NCBI GenBank assembly: GCA_029252265.1
Contig: JAQXBT010000071.1
Coordinates: forward strand, 1-49,111
Direction: 5' to 3'
From: Flavobacteriaceae bacterium
GTDB taxonomy: Bacteria; Bacteroidota; Bacteroidia; Flavobacteriales; Flavobacteriaceae
DNA length: 49,111 bases
The translations under genes were made by a program, and so were the position numbers. Shown piece after piece: positions 42,912 through 48,965 of the stretch. Positions within the stretch are counted from its first letter, which is position 1. Each line of letters opens with the position of its first letter. Under the pieces are notes generated by a model. That model did no database searches. It was not told where the DNA came from and saw only the letters and a program-made list of their open reading frames with translations.

Positions 42912-43325
42912 CTAAAAACTTTGTAAAGCGAGTTCGTAACTTTGTAACCCAAATCCTAGGATCACGCCCTTTGCATTTGGTGATATATAGGATTGATGCC
43001 TAAACTCTTCACGAGCGAAGGTATTGGATATATGTACTTCGATAACAGGCGTTTCAATGGCTTTGATCGCATCACCAATTCCAACAGAAGTGTGGGTATA
43101 TGCGGCGGCATTTAAGATAATTCCATCATAAGAAAAACCAACCTCTTGAATTTTATCAATCAACTCCCCTTCTATATTGGATTGAAAATAGGATAACTCA
43201 AAGCCTGTGTATTTCCTTTTTAACTCTGTAAAAAAGTCTTCAAACGTTTGTGCGCCATAAATACCGGGTTCACGCTTGCCCAATAAATTTAAATTAGGTC
43301 CATTAATGATGATGATTTTTTTCAT
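42912..43325 (-). CDS. aroQ: Type II 3-dehydroquinate dehydratase
   Basis: 137 aa enzyme of the shikimate pathway, converting 3-dehydroquinate to 3-dehydroshikimate. The N-terminal INGPNLNLLGKREPGIYG contains the catalytic-loop Arg18 and Tyr23. NAAAYTHTS and VIEVHISN complete the active site. Type II enzymes form dodecamers. Length is slightly short but normal. A TATTTTTG box at 43418-43425 lies 92 bases before the start. Convergent with lpdA. Confidence 0.95.
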   Translation of the reverse strand: MKKIIIINGPNLNLLGKREPGIYGAQTFEDFFTELKRKYTGFELSYFQSNIEGELIDKIQEVGFSYDGIILNAAAYTHTSVGIGDAIKAIETPVIEVHISNTFAREEFRHQSYISPNAKGVILGFGLQSYELALQSF

Positions 43326-43425: not shown

Positions 43426-43475
43426 CAAAAGTTATAGTAAAAAAAAAGAGGAAGTGTCGCTTCCTCTTAAATTTA
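43423..43475 (-). repeat. Third, short copy of the repeat tail plus terminator
   Basis: Gapless alignment of these 53 bases with 45418-45470 gives 5 mismatches as counted by eye. It covers the conserved tail next to the terminator and the terminator hairpin itself. The long upstream part of the repeat is missing here. Confidence 0.75.
43438..43468 (-). terminator. Terminator of barrel gene 43496-44020
   Basis: Stem AAGAGGAAG / CTTCCTCTT (43446-43454, 43460-43468), loop of 5, then at least eight T on the minus strand. Almost identical to the terminator of gene 45486-45989. Confidence 0.88.
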
Positions 43476-43495: not shown

Positions 43496-44020
43496 TTAAA
43501 ACTTGTACTGAACGCCAACAGAAAACTTCATGATAGAATCAGAGTCTTCAGCATCTTCTATTGTGAAAGTAAAGTAATCTAGGTTAGCTGCTAAACCCCA
43601 GTTACCTCCTAGTGAGTAATTGTAAGTTGCTCCAATGATCCAAGCACTTTCAACATCTTCGTCAAGTTCCATGCCACCTGATTTCATAGATACAGAAGAA
43701 AAGGCATATTGAGGTTTGAAATCAAAATCTCCGAAAGAGATCATTGGACCAACAGCAAAATATCCAACTCCAATAGTAACATCTCCTTCTTTTGAAGCAT
43801 GACTAGTAGCGCCCCAGTTCACTGTTGCACCCCATGTTTCATTGAAACGGTAACCTGCATTGATGAGACCTAAATCTAATCCTGTTTTAGCTGCGTCAGC
43901 TAAATCCCCTTGTGGAATTGCAGCACCAATTGAAACACCGATGTATTTTTTAAAATCTTGTGCAGTTGACGTGTTTGTTAAAAACAAAGCAAGAGCTAGA
44001 GTAAGTAATAATTTTTTCAT
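43496..44020 (-). CDS. Outer-membrane beta-barrel protein A
   Basis: 174 aa. Signal peptide about 1-20 (MKKLLLTLALALFLTNTSTAQ). Mature part alternates polar and hydrophobic residues (GAAIPQGDLADAAKTGLDLG, YNYSLGGNWGLAANLDYF) and ends in QYKF, a terminal aromatic typical of outer-membrane barrels, probably eight strands. Similar to OmpW/OprF-type small barrels, but no specific family is certain. First of four such genes on the minus strand; the upstream gap to the next gene is 454 bases and contains repeat copy 1. Confidence 0.8.
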   Translation of the reverse strand: MKKLLLTLALALFLTNTSTAQDFKKYIGVSIGAAIPQGDLADAAKTGLDLGLINAGYRFNETWGATVNWGATSHASKEGDVTIGVGYFAVGPMISFGDFDFKPQYAFSSVSMKSGGMELDEDVESAWIIGATYNYSLGGNWGLAANLDYFTFTIEDAEDSDSIMKFSVGVQYKF

Positions 44021-44236
44021 AATTTGAATTTTAGTTTATAGTTAATAAATCAAACTTAAACAAAAAATTATAATAAATTACATGTAATTTAATAAAAATG
44101 TACGTTTATCGGTAAAATATAGCCTTTAATAGAGTGAAAAACAATAATGTCACTTAAAAAACAATCAATATATTATTTAGTAAAGTAAATTTATTAGGAA
44201 AAAATAGTAGTTTCTCATTGATATAAAACATAATTC

Positions 44237-44433
44237 TAGCATCGTATTGAGATTATTGGTCATCAATACTTTCGAAATAATTATATGTGTATTTGAATTA
44301 TTATATTACTAGACATAGTATTCGTGTTTGAATAAAAATATTTAATCAATGGTTTCTTATCAATTCAAACATTGACCACCATAAAATACGTTTGTTTTCA
44401 TAAAAGACATACAAATGTTATGGTACAAAAAAA
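44237..44433 (-). repeat. Long non-coding direct repeat, copy 1
   Basis: Pairs with 45246-45442 at a constant offset of 1009, without gaps, with about 12 mismatches counted by eye. Three runs are identical: 44237-44279 (43 bases), 44313-44335 (23) and 44338-44379 (42). Contains inverted repeats GTATTGA/TCAATAC (44244-44250, 44263-44269) and TGTTTGAAT/ATTCAAACA (44325-44333, 44363-44371). Confidence 0.92.
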
Positions 44434-44456
44434 AGGAGCCACTAAGCTCCTTTTTT
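44422..44456 (-). terminator. Terminator of barrel gene 44475-45029
   Basis: Stem AAAAGGAGC / GCTCCTTTT (44431-44439, 44446-44454), loop CACTAA; T runs on both strands. Sequence differs from the terminators of genes A and C. Confidence 0.88.
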
Positions 44457-44474
44457 AAATAAATTAGTGATAAA

Positions 44475-45029
44475 TTATAGTCTAAACCCTAATCTTAACA
44501 TTCCAGTAACAGAACCATCTAAAGCAAAAGCAGTATCATCAGCAGAAATAATTCCTAAACCATATCCAATCTCAGTTCCAATATATACTTTAGGAATAAT
44601 GTAATAATCTGCTCCCAAAAAAACGCCTGCACCAACGGTAAACGCATCGTCAGTACCGTCGTCAGCAAATCCAACACTCCCCTGGTATCCCCAATACGTA
44701 GAAAGACGTTCGGCACCAGAAAAATGGTTTTCAATTCCGTACCCAAGACCAACAGCAAAGGCAGTATCCATACCATCTACACCTGTATCAACAATTTCTA
44801 AATTAACTGATAAACGGGTGGCTTGAGTCTCTGATTTAAATGAACGCATCATAAGAGTTCCAGAAGTCGACTCTGCAAACATTGCAGTCCCATCCAAGTT
44901 TGGCATAAATTTCATTTCGAAAGCAGTATCGCCAGCAGTTGGTTTGTTGAATGTACCAGCATTTGTTGTAATTTGAGCACTGGCGTAACTAATGGATGCT
45001 AAAGCAATAATTGTAAATAATTTTTTCAT
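44475..45029 (-). CDS. Outer-membrane beta-barrel protein B, flanked by direct repeats
   Basis: 184 aa with a signal peptide (about 1-19, ending YASAQ). Mature part has repeated Gly/aromatic strands (AFAVGLGYGIENHF, YIGTEIGYGLGI) and ends LRLGFRL. A small barrel of unknown role, not clearly a recent paralogue of A or C. It is the gene between the two long repeat copies, so homologous recombination could delete or amplify it. A TATTTTTG box at 45102-45109 lies 72 bases before its start. Confidence 0.78.
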   Translation of the reverse strand: MKKLFTIIALASISYASAQITTNAGTFNKPTAGDTAFEMKFMPNLDGTAMFAESTSGTLMMRSFKSETQATRLSVNLEIVDTGVDGMDTAFAVGLGYGIENHFSGAERLSTYWGYQGSVGFADDGTDDAFTVGAGVFLGADYYIIPKVYIGTEIGYGLGIISADDTAFALDGSVTGMLRLGFRL

Positions 45030-45101
45030 AATATTTTAGTTTGTTTATTATTAATAATATAAAATTAAACAAAAAATTATAATATATTAAAAATTATTTA
45101 A

Positions 45102-45109
45102 CAAAAATA
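45102..45109 (-). promoter_or_regulatory. -7 box TATTTTTG for barrel gene B
   Basis: Perfect TAnnTTTG on the minus strand, leader about 65 bases. The matching position in copy 1 reads TACATTTT and is less convincing. Confidence 0.45.
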
Positions 45110-45245
45110 TACTCTTATCGGTAAATAACAGCATTTAACAGAGTGAAAAACAATAGTGTCACTTAAAAAAATCAACATATAATTAAGATAAGTAATTTAC
45201 TAAGCAAAAAACCCGTAATTTCTAATTCATAAAAAATATAAATTA

Positions 45246-45442
45246 TAGCATCGTATTGAGATTATTGGTCATCAATACTTTCGAAATATTTATAAGTTTA
45301 TTTGAATCATTATATTTTTAAACATAGTATTCGTGTTTGAATAAGCATATTTAATCAATGGTTTCTTATCAATTCAAACATTGACCACTACAAAATACGT
45401 TTGTTTTCATATAAGACATACAAATGTTATGGTACAAAAAAA
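45246..45442 (-). repeat. Long non-coding direct repeat, copy 2
   Basis: Partner of 44237-44433, same orientation. Both inverted repeats are retained. Similarity continues, more diverged and with small gaps, to about 45108 (shared TATCGGTAAA, GAGTGAAAAACAATA, TGTCACTTAAAAAA). Confidence 0.92.
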
Positions 45443-45463
45443 GAGGAAGCGACGCTTCCTCTT
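45431..45463 (-). terminator. Terminator of barrel gene 45486-45989
   Basis: Stem AAGAGGAAGC / GCTTCCTCTT (45441-45450, 45454-45463), loop GAC, then T run on the minus strand. Confidence 0.88.
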
Positions 45464-45485
45464 AAATTTAGATTTGATTAAATAA

Positions 45486-45989
45486 TTAGAAATGCAAAGC
45501 AAAACCAATATTAAATTGAAAGATATTTTCATCAGAAAAATCTTCGTTCATAGTTAAGTTATAACGTAATCCTGGTTCAATTGAAACATTTTCACCTAAG
45601 AAAATGGCATACCCAGCTCCTAAGCCTAGCCATGAAGGATTCTCTTCATAGTCTTTAATTGAAGCTCCTGTATAATCCAAAGTTAAAGGAATATTTCCCA
45701 TTAGATAATACTTCCCACCAATTCGATAAGAAAAAGCATTAGTGTCGGTTAAAGAATTTCCAGAATATCCTAAACCTACTTTAATTGCTAGGTCATCTAT
45801 TACAAAGTAACCTCCGTCAACTCCAATGCCATATACAGACTCCCCATCTACAGAGTTGAATGAGAAAGATGTAGTTCCCACCATTTGATTTGCAATGTTA
45901 GTTTCAATTAATAAGCTTCCTTTTTCAGTTTGTGCATTAACAATAGTTAAAGCAAACACAGCCGTAGCTGTTAAAAGTAATTTTTTCAT
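45486..45989 (-). CDS. Outer-membrane beta-barrel protein C
   Basis: 167 aa, signal peptide about 1-19 (ending IVNAQ). Mature part with barrel-like strands (YGIGVDGGYFVIDDLAIKVGLGY, WLGLGAGYAIF) and a terminal F (ALHF). Resembles the Bacteroidota outer-membrane beta-barrel (OMP_b-brl) group. A perfect TACATTTG box at 46023-46030 gives a leader of about 28 bases. The terminator is nearly identical to that of gene A. Confidence 0.8.
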   Translation of the reverse strand: MKKLLLTATAVFALTIVNAQTEKGSLLIETNIANQMVGTTSFSFNSVDGESVYGIGVDGGYFVIDDLAIKVGLGYSGNSLTDTNAFSYRIGGKYYLMGNIPLTLDYTGASIKDYEENPSWLGLGAGYAIFLGENVSIEPGLRYNLTMNEDFSDENIFQFNIGFALHF

Positions 45990-46433: not shown

Positions 46434-46994
46434 TTAAAAATTATACCCAAACGAAAATTGAAACACTCTGTTTTTCCATTCAGCATCTGAGTTTTCCAGA
46501 TCATAAATGTTTGATAATCCAAAATTGAAACGCATTGCAAAATTAAAACCTTCTTCTAACTTATATCCTAAACCTAGATTAACTCCATACTCAATTGGTT
46601 TAAAACGATCTTTAGAATTTCTAATGACCGTATTGTTTTGATTTTTAGCTTCTGACTTAATTAAAAATCCTATTTGAGGACCTAATTCGAGACTTAAATA
46701 TTCAATAACATAATATTTAGCCATAATAGGAACGTTTATAAAATTTGTATTTATTGAGATATCAGAATTTCTTGCACCTTGAGCAGAATAGGTCAGCTCT
46801 GGTTGAATTGAAAACACATAAGATAATGGAAGTTCAACAACCGCTCCAAAATGAAATGAGATTCTTGGATCTGTATTTGGGCTACAGGTATTTGCTATAT
46901 TCCCCCCCCCTTTTATACCAAAAGCTACGTCTTGAGCATTCATAGTACATAAGGTAATTAACGTAATGGCAGATAAGGCTATTTTTTTTATCAT
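46434..46994 (-). CDS. Outer-membrane beta-barrel protein D (PorT-like), with nine-G tract
   Basis: 186 aa, signal peptide about 1-21 (ending MNAQ). Mature start DVAFGIKGGGNIANT matches the FGxKGGxN start of the PorT-family outer-membrane barrels, and the ELTYSAQGAR, YLSLELGPQIGFL and final FSFGYNF strands fit. Codons 29-31 are GGG GGG GGG, a nine-G homopolymer (46902-46910) right after the signal peptide. Gain or loss of one base would put the gene out of frame near its start. As sequenced the frame is open. Confidence 0.82.
   Translation of the reverse strand: MIKKIALSAITLITLCTMNAQDVAFGIKGGGNIANTCSPNTDPRISFHFGAVVELPLSYVFSIQPELTYSAQGARNSDISINTNFINVPIMAKYYVIEYLSLELGPQIGFLIKSEAKNQNNTVIRNSKDRFKPIEYGVNLGLGYKLEEGFNFAMRFNFGLSNIYDLENSDAEWKNRVFQFSFGYNF
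46902..46910 (-). repeat. Nine-G homopolymer inside barrel gene D
   Basis: Nine consecutive C on the plus strand (G in the coding strand), exactly filling codons 29-31. By eye it stands out as a long G/C run in AT-rich sequence. Confidence 0.95.
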
Positions 46995-47459: not shown

Positions 47460-48965
47460 ATGAAACATAAAATTTCACTTTTAATACTTGTTTTGGTTGC
47501 TTACAATGGTTATGGGCAATCTAAAAATCAAGAGTCTTATGCAAACAGTATCACAGCAGACGAATTAAAAGAAAAACTATACACTTATGCCTCTGATGAA
47601 TTTGAAGGTAGAGAAACAGGAACTAAAGGATTAGAGATTGCTATAGACTACTTGAGAAAGCATTATACAAATCTAGAAGTAGGATCCGCAAAATCAAATG
47701 GCGATTATTTCCAAAAAGTCCCCCTAACCATTGTAAATACCCCAGAAGTATCAATAAATGTAGAAAAAGAATCGTTTCGTTATTATGATGATTTTATAAG
47801 CATCGTAGATGCTCAATCAGGTCGCATTAATTCTAAAGACATTGTACTTGTCGGCTATGGCATTGAAGACGAAAAATACAATGACTATGAAGGACTTGAC
47901 GTTGAGGGTAAAATAATCGTTGCGATTGGTGGAGAACCAAAAGACGAAAATGGAAATTTTATTATAAGTGGTAATGACGGGAGTTCAAAATGGTCCAACG
48001 GACGTCAAGAACTGAGAGCAAAAAGTCGTGCTGCAAGAGCCTCCGGTGCAAAAGCATTTTTTTTAATTGATGAATCACTCTTTAAGCGGTATTCCTCTTA
48101 TTATAAAGCACTTGATGAGCGTGGGGGTGAAAGTATTTTATCGCTCGATGTCAACGACGAATCGATGTATGCATTTTTAGTGAGTCAATCCATGGGAGAT
48201 GCTTTATTGAAAGCAAATGAACTTAGTATCGACTTCGAACAAAAAAGTGAACCCATCTCCTCAGACAACGTTGCAGCGATGATTAAAGGCTCAGAAAAAC
48301 CAGACGAATACATTATACTCTCTGCGCATTTAGATCATATTGGTGTTCATGACGGCGAAGTTTTTAATGGAGCTGATGATGATGGTTCTGGAACCGTTGC
48401 TATTTTAGAAATTGCAGAAGCATTCAAAACAGCGGTTAAAAATGGACAAGGCCCAAAGCGCTCCATTATTTTCTTACATGTCACTGGGGAAGAAAAAGGA
48501 TTGCTTGGTTCTCAATATTACACCGATTATGATCCTATAGTTCCTTTGGCTCAAACGGTTGCTAATTTAAATATCGATATGATTGGTAGAACTGATCCTA
48601 AAAGAATTGAAGGCAAACGAAATTACATCTACCTTATTGGGAGTGATAAACTTAGTACGGATTTACATAACTTATCCGAAAACGTCAATACGAAGTACAC
48701 CAACATAGAATTAGACTACACCTATAATGACGACAACGATCCAAATCAATTTTACTACCGTTCTGACCATTATAATTTTGCTAAAAACAACATTCCAGTG
48801 ATCTTTTATTTTAATGGAACCCATGACGATTATCACCAAGCTTCCGATACGCCTGATAAAATTCAATACGATTTATTAGAAAATAGAACGCGTTTGGTAT
48901 TTCATACCGCTTGGGAATTAGCAAACAGAGACGAAGCCGTCCGTGTGGATAAAGCAATTAAGTAA
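47460..48965 (+). CDS. M28-family aminopeptidase, secreted
   Basis: 501 aa with a signal peptide (about 1-20, ending NGYGQ). The zinc site is H290 in SAHLDHIG, D306 in NGADDDGSG, E344/E345 in VTGEEKG, the DMIGR Asp and the HQASDT His, the full set of a dizinc M28 peptidase. A PA-domain-like insert lies about 120-260. It should release N-terminal residues from peptides outside the cytoplasm. No type IX sorting tail is visible. A hairpin follows the stop. Confidence 0.93.
   Translation: MKHKISLLILVLVAYNGYGQSKNQESYANSITADELKEKLYTYASDEFEGRETGTKGLEIAIDYLRKHYTNLEVGSAKSNGDYFQKVPLTIVNTPEVSINVEKESFRYYDDFISIVDAQSGRINSKDIVLVGYGIEDEKYNDYEGLDVEGKIIVAIGGEPKDENGNFIISGNDGSSKWSNGRQELRAKSRAARASGAKAFFLIDESLFKRYSSYYKALDERGGESILSLDVNDESMYAFLVSQSMGDALLKANELSIDFEQKSEPISSDNVAAMIKGSEKPDEYIILSAHLDHIGVHDGEVFNGADDDGSGTVAILEIAEAFKTAVKNGQGPKRSIIFLHVTGEEKGLLGSQYYTDYDPIVPLAQTVANLNIDMIGRTDPKRIEGKRNYIYLIGSDKLSTDLHNLSENVNTKYTNIELDYTYNDDNDPNQFYYRSDHYNFAKNNIPVIFYFNGTHDDYHQASDTPDKIQYDLLENRTRLVFHTAWELANRDEAVRVDKAIK

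Follow-up and report, generated by a model that had tools for sequence, protein, structure and literature searches.

A repeated spacer around an outer-membrane barrel gene as the probable trace of a recombination hotspot beside aroQ in a Flavobacteriaceae bacterium

Why does one barrel gene lie between two copies of the same non-coding DNA?

In the window that we analysed, by which we mean the whole 49,111-nt stretch of contig JAQXBT010000071.1 from a Flavobacteriaceae bacterium (here G000), a single outer-membrane barrel gene, B (44475-45029, minus strand, 184 aa), is bracketed by two long direct repeats of non-coding DNA, and the question is how such a repeat came to surround one gene of an array whose members look so unlike each other. 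Our answer, which we hold to be probably right, is that the repeat was left behind by recombination at a hotspot beside aroQ, where barrels are swapped, gained and lost as cassettes between shared flanks; the recombination event itself is something that we infer from its products in the sequence.

The array consists of four barrel genes, all on the minus strand: A (43496-44020, 174 aa, PF13505), B, C (45486-45989, 167 aa, a weak PF13505 match) and D (46434-46994, 186 aa, PF13568). On the left it is bordered by aroQ (type II 3-dehydroquinate dehydratase, 42912-43325, minus strand), which is a conserved neighbour in 13 of 18 genomes, and on the right by an M28-type peptidase (47460-48965, plus strand), which stands at the other border in all congeners with a contig reaching that far. 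The names aroQ and M28, like Lpd and XerD below, are what we take these genes to be from recognition of their sequences and not from a family search. Since all four barrels are read from the minus strand, each repeat copy is upstream of one barrel (A or B) and just past the terminator of the previous one (B or C). The source genome is a 1.89-Mb draft, 89% complete, and our comparison set comprised 17 other genomes of the genus, with one genome per species and draft assemblies throughout.

How long is the repeat, and where else is it found?

The sequence-only reading had described a non-coding direct repeat of 197 nt with about 12 mismatches at an offset of 1009, and this is real. As measured, copy 1 (44232-44433, minus strand, upstream of A and downstream of B's terminator) matches copy 2 (45241-45442, minus strand, upstream of B and downstream of C's terminator) without gaps over 202 nt, with 13 mismatches (94%) at the same offset, and the identical runs of 43, 42 and 23 nt that had been noticed are reproduced from the mismatch positions. 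The second copy is found by BLAST at E = 2.9e-84, so the repeat is not due to chance. The gapless core is confirmed, but its extent had been understated, since gapped homology (477 columns, 83.9%, 44007-44477 against 45016-45484) takes in the whole spacer of about 430 nt, beginning at the T-run of the terminator and reaching past the start codon into the first codons of A or B. Along this spacer the likeness is uneven. The distal block just described is 93.6% identical in the gapped alignment with one gap column, the middle part (44162-44231 and its counterpart 45171-45240, minus strand) about 80% with 7, and the proximal part, which runs through the promoter region and start codon into the first codons of A (44007-44161) or of B (45016-45170, both minus strand), 87% with 10, or 82% if aligned without gaps. 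Taken together, the spacer outside the distal block is about 85% identical with 17 gap columns, and the distal 200 nt are significantly more alike than this remainder (P = 0.006).

Each of A, B and C is followed by a terminator-like hairpin on the minus strand. Those of A (43446-43468) and C (45441-45463), both found by the consensus scan, are near-identical to each other, and that of B (44429-44456, GGAGC..GCTCC plus a T-run), which is outside the consensus scan list and appears as a hairpin in the plus-strand fold, is unlike both.

Searching the genome and its relatives with the unit, as the sequence-only reading had proposed, gave two copies in its own genome and none in any of the 17 congeners, the sister species G008 included, so that part of what that reading had named as counting against it was indeed found: the unit is absent from relatives and is not conserved. 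Among 40 genomes the two copies are the only significant matches (E <= 0.001); the matches in congeners at E 0.002-10 are short and AT-rich, and we took them as chance. No exact 30-mer of the repeat occurs in GTDB genome contigs or in viral contigs, and phage records gave no match. Non-coding DNA that is present twice and has no evident source might suggest a small mobile or dispersed repeat (MITE- or REP-like) or an artefact of assembly, and we consider either very improbable. There are just the two copies, both in the barrel array and in the same register with the adjoining promoter, no terminal inverted repeats were seen at the block ends, and congeners and sampled relatives hold no copy; as for an artefact, 13 mismatches and several gaps separate the two copies and each adjoins genes that are unique, which is unlike a collapsed or chimeric repeat.

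Were the barrels duplicated along with their spacers?

An offset of 1009 that stays constant over about 430 nt, together with the common start MKKL of the A and B proteins, is what one might expect had a spacer-plus-barrel unit been duplicated in tandem and its barrels then diverged fast. The proteins largely refute this, and we give it very little credence. The sequence-only reading had noted that the adjacent barrels are far more different than the repeat, and indeed A and B compare at E = 0.14, with similarity limited to the signal peptide and mature parts that are unrelated. In addition, each has its own orthologues in other species: A in four congeners at 78-85%, plus a distant relative at 42%, and B in G008, G006 and G011 only, giving it a patchy presence in 4 of 18 genomes. 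With no likeness past the signal peptide and with separate orthologues, the A and B families must be older than the repeat. The comparison of C with B is weak and partial (E = 0.017). B itself has no Pfam match, and is predicted to be an 8-stranded barrel with an OmpW/OmpA-like fold on the basis of a structure model (pLDDT 72, pTM 0.65) that Foldseek relates to OmpW/OmpA at E of about 1e-4.

Which barrels does the locus hold in other species?

Between aroQ and M28, the set of same-strand barrels differs in nearly every congener. Where G000 has A-B-C-D, its sister G008 (sister by a tree of flanking core proteins) has B alone; G006 has A-X-B-Y-C-Z, G011 B-Z, G009 A-C-Z, G003 A-remnant-Z, G004 A-Z', G014 X-Z, G007 D-X before its contig ends, G012 Z'-C, and G015 and G017 each Z'. 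G004 stands apart in that its Z' shares 90% identity with the Z' of the distant G012 but 46% with the Z of its own close relatives, which, like the divergence of B described below, points to import. Decayed barrels also occur in the hotspot, since Y of G006 (L045:6543-7040) is apparently frameshifted close to its end and G003 has a barrel remnant between A and Z (L048 5681-6696), of the same kind as Y.

The aroQ side of the locus has its own irregularities. In G003 aroQ (L048:4570-4981) is frameshifted, and its first 48 codons or so are 77% identical as compared with 90% for the rest, a divergent start that is possibly a recombination junction or an assembly error. The aroQ leader (window:43326-43495) falls into a long class of about 164-172 nt, which keeps an early ATGAA and a possible GTCACA/TGTGAC stem, and a short class of 78-96 nt, and these classes do not follow the tree, G011 having the short one and its sister G006 the long.

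Do promoters and barrel genes change partners?

They do, and it is here that the idea of barrel cassettes swapped between shared flanks, already raised from the sequence, finds good support, both in the reassortment of promoters and ORFs among congeners and in the strong divergence of B between sisters. Weak alignments of short AT-rich sequence are unreliable, so we used only strong ones with controls, namely 216 unrelated upstream pairs whose local-alignment z had a mean of 0.07 and a maximum of 4.6. Against that background, the region upstream of B in G008 resembles the region upstream of C in G000 over 381 nt that end at the start codon (63.5% identity, E 5e-28, z 12.5), which is expected if the ORF of C was replaced by that of B at a shared start ATTATGAAAAAATT. 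Likewise, the upstream region of A in G004 resembles that of C in G006 and G009 (z 14.5 and 13.7), and within G006 the upstream regions of Y and C are alike (78% over 165 nt and 74% over 229 nt, z 20), so that there, too, a barrel stands between two copies of a spacer.

The upstream regions of B in G000, G008, G006 and G011, on the other hand, are not alike (z -1.1 to 2.7). In G000 the proximal part of the A spacer is similar to what precedes A in congeners (z 5.7-6.6, where controls reached 4.6 at most), and the proximal part of the B spacer is similar to what precedes A in G006 (z 6.1) and unlike what precedes B in congeners (z 0.3-2.7). Because both of its spacers resemble the A upstream regions of other species, the B gene of G000 most likely carries an A-type spacer.

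The B gene also stands out for its divergence. Between G000 and G008 its product is 69% identical in amino acids and its 4-fold sites are 0.47 identical, as compared with 0.82 for M28, 0.81 for aroQ and 0.73 for Lpd among the flanking core genes (P = 4e-7, 3e-4 and 1e-4, respectively). Selection for a changing protein would not by itself make synonymous sites diverge and replacement by a foreign allele would, so that the B allele looks, by its sequence, to have been imported in one of the sister lineages, although relaxed codon bias could account for part of the high 4-fold divergence.

Is the distal block functional, or has it been homogenised?

Another suggestion made from the sequence was that the non-coding DNA is under strong constraint, and our results do not support it. 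It would be consistent with a distal block that is functional, as a small RNA, a leader or a cluster of operators kept by selection in front of two co-regulated barrels, and there are hints in that direction: the distal identity is higher, a perfect 7-bp inverted repeat, GTATTGA-N12-TCAATAC, is present in both copies (44244-44269 and 45253-45278) and nowhere else exactly in the genome, and the words ATTGA/TCAAT are in mild excess (5 against 1.7, P about 0.02, post hoc). However, the block is absent from the sister species and from 16 other congeners, its mismatches are spread as if at random (P = 0.51 for the longest run and 0.20 for the variance of the gaps), it has no match to an Rfam family, and its predicted RNA folds, which differ between the two copies, score close to shuffled sequence (gene strand, z -0.05 and -0.99; opposite strand with the terminator left out, -2.0 and -1.7). 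We therefore think this reading improbable. A small RNA or structured leader was rejected as an identity, the plus-strand z of about -4 having arisen from the terminator hairpin included in the fold, and so was a decayed barrel ORF, because six-frame translation of the repeat gave no match.

The first 50-85 nt or so of the repeat resemble the promoter and start of aroQ, the two spacers scoring 10.9 and 7.5 bits with a profile of the short leaders against a shuffled maximum of 5.9, and the start of the repeat is 80% identical over about 50 nt to the region upstream of aroQ in L110. Gapped alignments of the repeat with the first 50 or so codons of aroQ looked collinear, and for two or three species beat 180 of 180 decoy genes; however, with G000's own aroQ at z 1.3 and an aroQ coding profile that finds nothing, we do not accept a coding homology, and reject the repeat as a relic of the coding part of aroQ.

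Homogenisation by gene conversion, also proposed at the outset, is the rival that we take most seriously, and we would still bet against it. It would hold that, with no exchange of cassettes, the distal half of two old related spacers was recently made alike, and for the distal 200 nt that may be so, the contrast in identity and gap columns with the rest of the spacer (P = 0.006) being what it would leave behind. Intergenic DNA differs more between the sister species (86% gapped in the aroQ leader, 77% next to M28), so that the 94% distal match, if neutral, would be young, and the A-type promoter region predates the repeat, since congeners have it before A and G006 has it before B. What gene conversion leaves unexplained is that no congener has the distal block in front of A or B, and likewise the swapped pairs of promoter and ORF. 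It can act together with cassette exchange, and the raised identity of the distal 200 nt would be compatible with a conversion tract or with a small regulatory element such as the inverted repeat.

How might cassettes be exchanged?

Under cassette exchange, the mechanism that we propose, homologous recombination, presumably of the RecA type, would act on non-coding flanks that different barrel genes have in common. The 3' arm would be the terminator and the sequence just past it, the 5' arm the promoter, start codon and beginning of the signal peptide, and recombination would insert, delete or replace the ORF between them, at times leaving a second copy of a flank. In G000, B most likely arrived in the interval that separates C from A and gained a duplicate of the A spacer as its upstream region, as the likeness of both spacers to A-type upstream regions of congeners suggests. 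Against the reading stands the better conservation of the distal 200 nt between the copies than of the rest (P = 0.006), which one duplication followed by even decay would not predict. Two like spacers would give A and B similar expression, and would remain a substrate for the loss or gain of B. In well-studied bacteria, RecA-dependent exchange can use repeats of this size (202 nt, including identical stretches of more than 40 nt), which makes deletion or amplification of B through the repeat plausible by analogy. The order of events, the enzymology and the co-expression of A and B are matters that we infer, as is the benefit, which may lie in changing exposed barrels, for example against phages or predators.

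Is the locus used in this way outside the genus?

Beyond the genus, 65 of 80 aroQ loci from other Flavobacteriaceae (L059-L138, aroQ at about 7001) have a detectable barrel relative nearby, and the genomes checked hold just 1-14 matches to PF13568, the commonest barrel family. A XerD-like recombinase gene lies on the other side of the locus in 64 of the 80, with the barrels usually between aroQ and this divergent gene. In L067, L094 and L135 aroQ and the XerD-like gene are just 60-110 nt or so apart, resembling empty sites. In Cellulophaga sp. 20_2_10 (L069:4758-6498) three tandem barrels precede aroQ that have spacer, promoter and a near-identical signal peptide in common (84% over 284 nt) and little similarity in their mature parts, so spacers common to different barrels do recur at the aroQ locus. 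At L114 (5586-5684 and 6239-6337) a barrel gene's final codons, together with its terminator, recur at 89% identity beyond the 3' end of a small lipoprotein-like gene, much like a leftover 3' flank.

A bolder version of our reading, which we put forward tentatively and would not expect to prove correct in full, is that the whole family has a dedicated site beside aroQ, where often unrelated barrel ORFs are exchanged between species as promoter-trapped cassettes. The universal arms would then be the segments made up of spacer, promoter and signal peptide and of terminator and aroQ promoter, and the distal repeat of 200 nt would count among these arms, derived in part from the 5' region of aroQ.

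Does it resemble any known system?

The evolutionary strategy is a known one, although our literature searches found no report on this aroQ-adjacent locus. One likeness is to the bab (hop) adhesin genes of Helicobacter pylori, outer-membrane protein genes in which homologous recombination within the genome alters both the locus and the 5' region and so gives new promoter/ORF pairs, including chimeric bab genes with swapped 5' regions (PMC4552749). As there, the set of outer-membrane protein genes at one locus varies among relatives, here between aroQ and M28, and new combinations of 5' region and ORF arise, a C-type promoter standing before B in G008, A in G004 and Y in G006. However, bab genes are close paralogues with most of their sequence in common, whereas the barrels here are unrelated or barely related, as A and B are, and what they have in common is non-coding flanks and signal-peptide starts; the exchange is seen between species, and no phase-variable CT tract was noticed at this locus. 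We therefore class the hotspot as working like bab and not as a member of that system.

In the p28/OMP-1-type loci of Ehrlichia and Anaplasma, as here, barrel genes follow one another on one strand at a single chromosomal site, and an intergenic promoter precedes each of them, but those genes represent one paralogous family in large stable arrays, whereas the aroQ hotspot has 1-6 genes of several families with turnover between species. Integron cassettes, too, are same-strand ORFs gained and lost between constant borders; in this genus no integrase gene lies between or beside the barrels at the hotspot, and the shared flanks (72-430 nt) look like ordinary substrates for homologous recombination. 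The XerD-like recombinase genes do flank most of the loci outside the genus, but XerD is a housekeeping protein.

What would this mean for the organism?

If our reading is true, one site beside aroQ lets us see the way in which the barrels exposed by an uncultured marine flavobacterial lineage are reshuffled, and a conserved non-coding repeat of this sort may be a homology arm left by gene exchange, and not necessarily a functional RNA or regulatory element. Cultured relatives with like loci, such as Cellulophaga, make the mechanism testable, and the locus would offer a simple target for PCR or read mapping with which to follow the rate at which barrels are reshuffled in the sea.
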